DNA of 41,561 nt from Caldimicrobium sp. (GTDB lineage: Bacteria > Desulfobacterota > Thermodesulfobacteria > Thermodesulfobacteriales > Thermodesulfobacteriaceae): positions 1 through 41,561 of the forward strand of contig JANXCE010000021.1 in NCBI GenBank assembly GCA_025059715.1, read 5' to 3'. Made by a program: the position numbers and the translations under genes. The notes beneath the pieces are model-generated. The model did no database searches. It was not told where the DNA came from and saw only the letters and a program-made list of their open reading frames with translations. This document shows, one piece after another, positions 6,665 to 27,685 of this stretch. The first letter of the stretch is position 1, and the number at the start of each line of letters is the position of its first letter.

Positions 6665-6693
6665 TTGACTTTATGGATGACAATTAGTATAAT
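6665..6693 (+). promoter_or_regulatory. Sigma-70-type promoter of the CxxCH gene and small peptide
   Basis: -35 TTGACT (6665-6670) and -10 TATAAT (6688-6693) are 17 bases apart, close to consensus. Transcription would start about 25 bases before the GGAGG ribosome binding site of the gene at 6724. Confidence 0.8.
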
Positions 6694-6723: not shown

Positions 6724-6978
6724 ATGAAGAAACTTGCTTTAGTTCTTGCTTTGATTTTAGGTCTGGGGGGGATCTCCTTACTTAAGGCTCAAGAACTACC
6801 TTGCTTGAAGTGCCACACTTCAGCTAATCCTTTACCTGACAAGATTAAAAAGTCAGGGGCAAAGTCTGCGGCAGAACTGGTGGAATTTATAAGAAAGAAA
6901 TCTCCAAAGCAGGCTTTGCATAAGACAGTTACAGATGAAGACATCAAAAAAGCCTTTGAACAGTTTGGCAAGAAATAA
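6724..6978 (+). CDS. Small exported CxxCH protein, probably a monohaem c-type cytochrome
   Basis: The product is 84 residues. A Sec signal peptide (MKKLALVLALILGLGG, cleavage probably near LKAQ) is followed at once by CLKCH, a CxxCH haem c attachment motif. The mature part is about 60 residues and Lys-rich. The only other His (ALHK) could be the second axial ligand; there is no Met in the mature part. A periplasmic electron carrier is the natural reading, but a single CxxCH can also occur by chance or bind metal. GGAGG at 6712-6716 marks the start. It has its own strong promoter and is followed 22 bases later by a small secreted peptide gene. Confidence 0.72.
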   Translation: MKKLALVLALILGLGGISLLKAQELPCLKCHTSANPLPDKIKKSGAKSAAELVEFIRKKSPKQALHKTVTDEDIKKAFEQFGKK

Positions 6979-7000
6979 TATCAAACAGGAGGTGTGAAAT

Positions 7001-7168
7001 ATGAAGAAGTTAGTATCTCTTTTAAGTGGAGTTACCTTTATCTTTGGTGCTGTGAGCTTAGGGTTAGCAGCTGGTGATAAGAAGGATGCCAAAAAGGACA
7101 CCCCCACTGCTAACGCCACTAATGCCACTAAACCTACTCCTAAAAAGAAAAAAGTAGAGGGTTGCTAA
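7001..7168 (+). CDS. Small exported Lys/Thr/Ala-rich peptide (55 aa), unknown function
   Basis: ATG 7001 has a strong AGGAGGTG site 7-14 bases upstream. The 55 residues comprise a signal peptide (MKKLVSLLSGVTFIFGAVSL, likely cut near GLAAG), then a short low-complexity tail with repeated AKKD, NATNAT and PKKKK and a single Cys as the last residue. The mature part of about 30 residues should be disordered and very basic. It shares one promoter with the CxxCH gene upstream and is followed by a perfect terminator palindrome. No family is recognised. Its plan matches the peptide at 27409-27570. Confidence 0.7.
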   Translation: MKKLVSLLSGVTFIFGAVSLGLAAGDKKDAKKDTPTANATNATKPTPKKKKVEGC

Positions 7169-7174
7169 TCTTTC

Positions 7175-7198
7175 AAAGGGAGCCTTAAGGCTCCCTTT
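7175..7198. terminator. Terminator palindrome after the small peptide gene
   Basis: AAAGGGAGCC and GGCTCCCTTT flank TTAA, a perfect 24-base palindrome 6 bases after the stop at 7168. It is followed by a mixed CT-rich stretch, not a long T run. Confidence 0.8.
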
Positions 7199-21217: not shown

Positions 21218-22222
21218 TTAGGTTTCATTGATTCTATAGCCAAATTGTTGGATTACTTCCAGGGGGTTTGAGGCAAGAATAAGCTCTCTGTGAAGCCTCT
21301 TTAGTTTTCCGCGGTCAGTTTCTGCCTTGATCTGCTCTTCCAATTGCTTTGGCACTCTTCCAAGCTTTACCTCCACCACCTCAAGCACCATCTCCTGAGC
21401 CTCCTTTAAGAGGCCCTGCTGTAACCCCTGTTGTATGCCCTGTTGCAAACCCAACTCGTATTTCCTCTCTGAATAGGTCTTCAACTCAAACTCCACTCTT
21501 TCACCTCCTACCTCTCTTAATTTAATCAACACCTCTTCCTCGTCAAGCCCCTTCTCCTTTGAAATTATCAACAAAAACCACTCCAAATACCATCTTTCCC
21601 TCTCCCCTAACTTCCCCACCACCTCTACAAACCTCACTATCCCCCTCAATAACTCTTCAAGCGGTCTATCAAGATTCCTAAGCAAATAGAGATATGCATA
21701 CACCACACTATAAAGCTCAATCCCCTTCAAAAGGTCCTCTCGGTTAAGGCTTACCAAGTCAAGCAGTAACACCCTGTAGTTTAGAAAGTAAGACCTAATC
21801 TCAGCAGGTATTTCAAAGAGTTCCACAAACTCAACGGGATAGAGCCAAGGCCTTTCTCCGTGATAGAAGATGAAGGGAAGCACGGGGATAGGTTTTGAGC
21901 CTTCTTTGAGGGCTTTTTCAAAGAGAGCGGAGATGTAGTTTAAGATTTGAGCGTAAGCTGAGAGATCTTGATAGGACTTGTGTTCGAGGAGGATGTAGAG
22001 TTGAACAGGTTTTCCGAGGAGGGGGACTTGGGCGATGAGGTCAGGAAGGAGGCGTTTTTCTTTGGGAAGGGAGATTTGTTCTTCAGGCACCAGAGAGAGT
22101 TGAGAGAGGTCTAAGTGGGGAAGGAGGTCCTTTGGGAGAAATTCTTGAAGGAAGGCCTTAAGATTTTCAGGGTCTTTAAGGATTGCCTTAGCATAGAGAT
22201 CGTAGGCCTTAAGCTCTGCCAT
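21218..22222 (-). CDS. Rpn family recombination-promoting nuclease / putative transposase (PD-(D/E)XK)
   Basis: The 334-residue protein matches the Rpn/transposase_31 family, DNA endonucleases linked to RecA-independent recombination. The nuclease core is visible: Asp61 in LLPDLIAQV, then Glu80-x-Lys82 in YILLEHKSYQD, and a downstream QILNYISALFEK helix. FIFYHGERPW is typical. Near residue 250-268 is the family's Gln-Gly repeat YELGLQQGIQQGLQQGLL, and a helical tail follows. The frame is intact although everything around it is decayed, so it may be recent or under selection. Such genes vary in the repeat region, which can change length by slippage. Confidence 0.85.
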   Translation of the reverse strand: MAELKAYDLYAKAILKDPENLKAFLQEFLPKDLLPHLDLSQLSLVPEEQISLPKEKRLLPDLIAQVPLLGKPVQLYILLEHKSYQDLSAYAQILNYISALFEKALKEGSKPIPVLPFIFYHGERPWLYPVEFVELFEIPAEIRSYFLNYRVLLLDLVSLNREDLLKGIELYSVVYAYLYLLRNLDRPLEELLRGIVRFVEVVGKLGERERWYLEWFLLIISKEKGLDEEEVLIKLREVGGERVEFELKTYSERKYELGLQQGIQQGLQQGLLKEAQEMVLEVVEVKLGRVPKQLEEQIKAETDRGKLKRLHRELILASNPLEVIQQFGYRINET

Positions 22223-27408: not shown

Positions 27409-27570
27409 ATGGTTAAGAAGTTGTTAAGTTTACTTGTGATTTTAGGTTTAGCAGTATCCCCTGTGTTTGCTTCTAAGGGTGAGGGAGACAAGGGCAAGGA
27501 CAAGCCTAAGGCAGAAGCTAAGAAAGACAACAAGACCGACAACAAGACTGACAAGAAGGACAAAAAGTAA
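27409..27570 (+). CDS. Small exported Lys/Asp-rich peptide (53 aa), unknown function
   Basis: ATG 27409 follows AAGGAGG (27395-27401). The product is 53 residues: a signal peptide (MVKKLLSLLVILGLAVSPVF, cut near VFAS) and then about 32 residues of Lys, Asp, Gly and Asn with short repeats (GDKGKDK, KKDNKTDNKTDKKDKK). The mature peptide should be disordered and highly charged. A sigma-54-like promoter precedes it and a hairpin follows. It has the same plan as the peptide at 7001-7168 (M-(V)KKL-SLL signal, Lys-rich tail), though its tail is more acidic and has no Cys. No known family is recognised. Confidence 0.7.
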   Translation: MVKKLLSLLVILGLAVSPVFASKGEGDKGKDKPKAEAKKDNKTDNKTDKKDKK

Positions 27571-27597
27571 TCTTAGGTTCCCATTACCTATTCTCAG

Positions 27598-27620
27598 GGG
27601 GGAGGTATTTACTCTCCCCC
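27598..27620. terminator. Terminator hairpin between the small peptide gene and argD
   Basis: GGGGGAG (27598-27604) and CTCCCCC (27614-27620) form a 7-bp stem with a 9-base loop, followed by TTCTTATTT on +. It lies between convergent genes and could serve both. Confidence 0.75.
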
Positions 27621-27685
27621 TTCTTATTTAAAGAGATCATTTTCTTGGCTTTGTCATATTTTTTATATCAGAGTTGAATTTTGAT

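Follow-up and report, generated by a model that had tools for sequence, protein, structure and literature searches.

SoxYZ is a periplasmic sulfur carrier in which SoxY, which has a folded domain and a GGCGG end, holds a reactive Cys on a flexible C-terminal arm and works with haem proteins. Sorting tags of the LPXTG and PEP-CTERM kind place a membrane helix and then a basic terminus after their motif, and the peptides modified by DUF692 (MNIO) enzymes carry EGKCG motifs and are encoded adjacent to such an enzyme. A title cited in PMC6335251 describes the arm of the SoxYZ sulfur carrier as a swinging one. In the excerpts available of PMC5877670 and PMC6148476, extHIJKL encodes a rhodanese (ExtH), a porin (ExtI), a small protein without assigned function (ExtJ) and cytochromes, and in the former extI is needed for selenite and tellurite reduction, loss of the porin impairing both in Geobacter. 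The term ‘C-terminal’ is absent from the main texts of both papers, and our literature search found no account of proteins that end in an EGC or Gly-Cys tail. The YTD cluster is presented in the accessible parts of PMC12998232 and PMC8780430 as a candidate for sulfur disproportionation, and as no marker on its own. Desulfovibrio PglBs, according to the excerpt of PMC4894442, glycosylate minimal N-X-T and RDNAT sites.

Here we describe a gene for a small exported peptide ending in Glu-Gly-Cys, encoded in a 1.84 Mb genome from which we analysed one stretch of 41,561 nucleotides (the window). The tail recurs on several exported proteins that are unrelated to it and have links to the chemistry of sulfur and selenium, and this points to a common working arm, so far undescribed. 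An earlier sequence-only reading of the window contained neither the partner gene, nor the N-X-T sequons of its two peptides, nor the presence of the tail on unrelated proteins.

The peptide gene and its CxxCH neighbour

The gene at 7001-7168 (+ strand, stop included) encodes 55 residues, MKKLVSLLSGVTFIFGAVSLGLAAGDKKDAKKDTPTANATNATKPTPKKKKVEGC, with a Lys start and hydrophobic stretch resembling a signal peptide, a Lys-rich remainder and a single Cys as the last residue. We infer that the N-terminus is a signal peptide and, from its composition, that the mature part is disordered. A strong ribosome binding site, AGGAGGTG (6987-6994, +), lies 6 bases before the ATG and has a counterpart of like kind in 8/8 genomes compared, and a terminator-like hairpin of 10 pairs follows the gene at 7175-7198 (+). 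Full-length homologs are present in nine of 99 genomes including its own, the other eight being 62-91% identical (E 2e-28 to 4e-12), and a tenth genome (G002) carries a homolog cut by a contig end. These ten peptide-bearing genomes comprise 7/7 of the same genus, 1/1 of genus g2 and 2/14 of genus g6. Judged by the homologs, the ORF is a real, conserved gene, in agreement with the sequence-only reading, which had also recognised the ribosome binding site, the exported Lys-rich plan and the terminator-like hairpins of this and a second gene. Against its close relative in G003 the gene shows five synonymous and five nonsynonymous differences (dS 0.146, dN 0.040), few changes that are weak evidence alone. 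An antisense 91-residue ORF (6853-7128) was taken as a by-product of the overlap. Matches of both window peptides in Pfam, NCBIfam and PHROGs are below cut-off or low-complexity, and the match of both to phrog_806 (E 0.004-0.006) looks like signal peptide plus Lys bias.

Eighteen of the 55 positions are invariant in the nine rows, and they include K48-K51, E53, G54 and C55 of the tail KKKKVEGC (residues 48-55, 7142-7165, +), whereas neither the length of the linker nor how many NAT units it holds is constant. The lone terminal Cys singled out earlier is thus kept in 9/9 homologs; the Lys richness, prominent in the earlier reading, gives way to the terminal EGC as the signal of interest.

The peptide gene does not stand alone. 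A gene for an exported 84-residue protein of the one-haem CxxCH type (6724-6978, +), the likely partner, ends 22 nt before the peptide start (21-48 nt over eight genomes compared), and is itself preceded by a sigma-70-like promoter, TTGACT-17-TATAAT (6665-6693, +), with 11/12 matches. Given this short gap, in which no promoter-like site is listed, the peptide gene is probably the second of a two-gene operon headed by the CxxCH gene, and the promoter of its own with which it had been credited falls away, the only strong promoter-like site being that of its neighbour. The two genes adjoin in nine of the ten peptide-bearing genomes; in the exception, G004, both lie at contig ends. The neighbour combines a signal peptide with a CxxCH motif (CLKCH), as c-type cytochromes do, and C27, C30 and H31 are invariant in ten rows, as is His66. 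No cytochrome c family reaches its cut-off for this protein (PF13442, 16.4 bits against 27), and there is no solved relative and no fold match with E <= 0.001. A paralog without the tail is encoded elsewhere in the same genome (G000 C44:5946-6155, L131), and relatives occur in most genomes of the family. A link of the terminal Cys to haem, one of the earlier suggestions, gains indirect support from this pairing and from three relatives in which a similar haem domain is fused to the tail.

The second Lys-rich exported peptide is present as proposed (27409-27570, +; 53 residues), with a terminator-like hairpin at 27596-27622 (+), and its promoter-like site is weak (9/12, 1.0 expected by chance). 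It has two N-K-T sequons (27529-27549) and no Cys. BLASTP aligns only 23 residues of the two peptides (E 0.015), so that the family the sequence-only reading had made of them dissolves: judged on sequence, they have a common plan and sequons, no common tail, and are not one family. Some peptides that resemble that of 27409 or have its kind of signal peptide, in G011, G013 and G022, nevertheless end in KKKVEGC, so the two plans overlap. A separate ORF of the window, at 21218-22222 (-), encodes what we take by eye to be an Rpn/YhgA-type transposase-derived nuclease.

In the 7001 peptide the linker contains NATNAT, two N-X-T sequons (residues 38-43, 7112-7129, +). Every mature-part Asn lies in an N-X-T site in the nine homologs (20/20), in the 27409 peptide (2/2) and in a peptide of G006 (C32, 6/6), as do 7/10 in a protein of G028 (C35). 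Shuffle tests give P from 0.067 to < 0.0002 per protein, values with which an origin of the NAT units by slippage would also be compatible. STT3 exceeds its cut-off in 24/41 genomes, including that of the window, whose enzyme has the WWDYG motif and matches the STT3/PglB core PF21436; its gene (G000 C33, L120:9317-11401, -) lies between housekeeping genes with no recognisable pgl cluster. As in PglB-type N-glycoproteins, the exported segments have N-X-T sites and the genome encodes an oligosaccharyltransferase, and both window peptides are likely to be N-glycosylated. The residue at -2 is not acidic in most sites, and a relaxed enzyme would be needed, such as the Desulfovibrio PglBs of the PMC4894442 excerpt.

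The Gly-Cys tail in other exported proteins

Across 30 genomes of the Thermodesulfobacteriaceae the pattern K-x-E-G-C-stop occurs 34 times, compared with 12 for the pattern read backwards. We read 24 of the 34 matches: five are chance and 19 are on exported proteins, nine of these being the peptide itself and ten others. Three of the ten are CxxCH proteins of the neighbour's kind, plain exported in G007 and lipoprotein-like in G005 and G028; one is a SoxA/TsdA-type cytochrome (G001), five are Lys-rich peptides (G006, G011 twice, G013 and G022) and one is a Pro/Ala/Lys-rich lipoprotein-like protein (G019). The tail mostly follows flexible Pro/Ala/Lys/Gly linkers on proteins otherwise unalike, three of which have a lipoprotein-like N-terminus (L134, L136 and L142), and no modifying enzyme was recognised by eye among the listed neighbours of the tail genes. 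Reading of all 19 [E/Q]GC-stop sites in the genome of the window showed a single one on an exported ORF, that of the window peptide. The lipoprotein-like CxxCH protein of G028 (L136:1644-2126, -) carries seven sites of the N-Q-T or another N-X-T type within the linker, and its end is KKKIEGC. At L139:1122-1909 two tandem, near-identical genes for Pro/Ala/Lys-rich lipoproteins lie directly 5' of a gene for a KKKVEGC peptide.

Elsewhere in the phylum nearly all KxEGC ends fetched are on short frames without a signal peptide and were therefore set aside as chance, the exception being an ExtJ-like match in G068 (L162). A scan of 84,980 species for AARAARAARDTNGARGGNTGYTRR returned 45 stretches with 46 matches, 40 of which end in a true stop. 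By a simple rule 22 of these have a signal peptide, and three more were judged by eye to be exported or cut by a contig end (L186, L215 and L217). Every one of these 25 comes from a record whose title names a Desulfobacterota group or a ‘Deltaproteobacteria’ or ‘Proteobacteria’ bin. Of the remaining 15, 14 are frames of 28 residues or less and one, L195, is a protein that lacks a signal peptide. The exported tail proteins from outside the Thermodesulfobacteriaceae are BON-domain proteins, one protein rich in Lys and Ala, and small ExtJ-like proteins. Six BON-domain proteins, from Desulfobulbaceae, were recognised by eye, and the one tested has three BON stretches (E 1.2e-44). Four of the seven small proteins tested exceed the NCBIfam cut-off for ExtJ of 52.5 bits, the rest scoring 51.7, 43.8 and 31.4.

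ExtJ matches are found in 101 of 395 phylum genomes at E <= 0.001, 26 of them over the cut-off, and all 30 loci read, in the frame of the match and with no choosing by tail, end in [E/Q]GC. The ExtJ model covers the C-terminus, so its top matches favour tailed proteins; yet L235 and L242, whose matches reach no further than model positions 62-63, both end in LEGC. When 24 rows are aligned (23 distinct genes, with 30-77% identity to the first), invariance is confined to M1, a single Gly, a single Val and the Gly-Cys at the end; the Lys of the tail is not kept. These proteins have no sequons, and their predicted structure is too weak to use (mean pLDDT 62). ExtH, the rhodanese lipoprotein of the ext cluster, exceeds its cut-off in 7/395 genomes and ends in Gly-Cys in five, behind a Gly/Ser or Pro/Ala-rich linker; the two without it are of one genus, and none of the weaker rhodanese matches read (L306-L328) has a Gly-Cys end. 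A gene for a TlpA/ResA-like thioredoxin lies directly 5' of ExtJ at L179, L209 and L254, with Hcp-like and ferredoxin-like genes (by eye) also nearby at L179 and L209. In four genomes of different genera (L134:1475-2843, L255, L265 and L266) a tail gene, for the haem lipoprotein or ExtJ, is beside an L,D-transpeptidase-like gene and panC-panD.

The tailed cytochrome of G001 (PF21342, E 7.9e-12) is encoded on the same strand as a yedE-tusA-dsrE-chp cluster and 550 nt behind it; the first two genes of the cluster are Pfam matches, and the other two are named by eye and from the published order. Its nearest homolog (G086, 58% identical) ends in ...APVPKK without EGC. We read the YTD cluster in eight of the ten peptide-bearing genomes, the exceptions being G003, with no YedE match, and G002 (72% complete), with a YedE of another size. 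Within genus g6, YedE frames of at least 390 residues are found, among the matches listed, in the two peptide-bearing genomes and in none of the 12 others, a concordance that counts for little as both may be close relatives. Long YedE frames without the peptide occur in G009, G010, G012, G016 and G020, and long YedE is likewise found in genera g4 and g5, which lack the peptide; G009 and G010 carry a tailed ExtJ instead.

Candidate functions of the tail

We propose, at a probability of roughly one in three, that the 7001 product is a small periplasmic, probably glycosylated flexible peptide whose C-terminal thiol is a sulfur/redox arm for its haem partner. Signal peptide apart, it would consist of a flexible Lys-rich linker, probably N-glycosylated at the N-A-T sites, and the terminal Glu-Gly-Cys. 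As a mobile thiol, the Cys would accept and pass on either sulfane sulfur, in the form of a persulfide or thiosulfate adduct, or plain thiol electrons, with selenium as a possible cargo by analogy, and the CxxCH protein encoded upstream would supply or take electrons. In the relatives the same arm would be built into exported redox or sulfur proteins, namely similar CxxCH proteins, the SoxA/TsdA-type cytochrome, ExtJ and, as Gly-Cys, the ExtH rhodanese. Such an arm would work as the swinging Cys arm of SoxY does, by convergence and without homology.

A mobile thiol arm is the simplest account because the terminal Cys is kept while nearly all else changes, the EGC of the nine homologs against their variable linker being the clearest case, and because the tail is fused to haem proteins or beside them, ends a rhodanese, and has sulfur or selenium neighbourhoods wherever these can be named. 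The fusions in G005, G007 and G028 join it to a haem domain of the very kind encoded beside the peptide. A plain thiol is favoured since the peptide has no other Cys and no modifying enzyme was recognised by eye beside tail genes. Against the arm, the peptide and the YTD cluster part company in G003, g4 and g5, and four tailed genomes of Thermodesulfobacterium type (G011, G013, G019 and G022) have no long YTD-type YedE among the matches listed; the genome of the window, moreover, has no counterpart of the tailed G001 cytochrome at E <= 1e-5.

The tailed BON-domain proteins and the Lys/Pro-rich lipoprotein, which have no evident sulfur role, are harder to reconcile with the arm and make a tag for sorting or anchoring conceivable; its Cys would be joined by a disulfide, a lipid or otherwise to a partner in the envelope, keeping exported proteins that are not related to one another in one place. 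Tail proteins that share nothing else and mostly have a flexible linker before the tail would be expected of such a tag, and in G005 the tailed haem lipoprotein gene is followed after 47 nt by an L,D-transpeptidase gene, while ExtJ is beside an L,D-transpeptidase-related gene in G034, G009 and G010, that of G034 having weak NCBIfam matches only. Linkage through Lys by such an enzyme is, however, argued against by the ExtJ tails, in which only Gly-Cys is invariant; the three lipoprotein-like tail proteins would already have an anchor at the N-terminus, the tail is rare in the genome of the window, with one exported ORF in 19 sites, and inspection of the neighbours by eye found no dedicated enzyme. 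We regard an anchor as doubtful.

A chiefly structural role, as an N-glycopeptide and envelope polycation whose Cys forms nothing but disulfide dimers, seems unlikely to us. The confinement of Asn to N-X-T sites, the WWDYG-bearing STT3/PglB and the minimal sites accepted by Desulfovibrio PglBs (PMC4894442, as excerpted) all suit that role, but it leaves unexplained the invariant EGC, shared with the sequon-free ExtJ, and the pairing with the CxxCH gene. A thiol scavenging soft metals or chalcogens (Se, Te, Hg, Cu) for detoxification is quite improbable: ExtJ and ExtH are indeed encoded in the ext cluster, whose ExtI serves selenite and tellurite reduction in Geobacter (PMC5877670, as excerpted), but a single Cys per peptide binds metal poorly unless dimerised, and the named neighbourhoods in Thermodesulfobacteriaceae are sulfur ones.

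Returning to the thiol arm, its widest form can be put forward only tentatively. Desulfobacterota may possess a thiol relay of the periplasm, not described so far, that serves sulfur and selenium both in sulfur disproportionation and in the ext selenite/tellurite conduit; its mark would be a portable [E/Q]-Gly-Cys arm at the C-terminus, occurring either by itself on a free glycosylated peptide or as the end of haem proteins, ExtJ, rhodanese and BON proteins.

Comparison with described systems

The tail bears on how sulfur disproportionators take up and move sulfur in the periplasm and on the role of ExtJ in selenite and tellurite reduction; one residue common to ExtJ, ExtH, the YTD-side cytochrome and the free peptide ties both questions together. 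An anchoring role would make the tail a sorting signal that lacks a membrane helix, a kind not known to have been described. Tags of the LPXTG and PEP-CTERM kind were set aside, the 7001 peptide having no hydrophobic stretch after the signal peptide, and it differs from DUF692 (MNIO) modified peptides in having EGC, not EGKCG. With the bacterial PglB/STT3 N-glycoproteins it shares N-X-T sites in a flexible exported segment and an STT3/PglB in the genome. The YTD cluster accompanies it in most peptide-bearing genomes and has one tail protein beside it, that of G001; the window peptide itself lies outside the cluster.

To SoxYZ the likeness would be in the proposed working only, a reactive periplasmic Cys on a flexible C-terminal arm with a haem-protein partner. 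No sequence relation to SoxY was recognised, none of the Pfam and NCBIfam hits listed for the peptide is SoxY, and its end is EGC, unlike the GGCGG of SoxY. Closest in form is ExtJ (NCBIfam NF040942, selenite/tellurite reduction operon protein), likewise small and exported, with a similar signal peptide, a basic C-terminal stretch and the [E/Q]GC end that the peptide shares as EGC. Membership was rejected, since the match covers residues 1-25 only at 13.8 bits against 52.5 and profile comparison aligns the signal peptide alone. The 7001 peptide differs from ExtJ in lacking a beta-rich middle part and in having N-X-T sequons and a partner of the CxxCH type.
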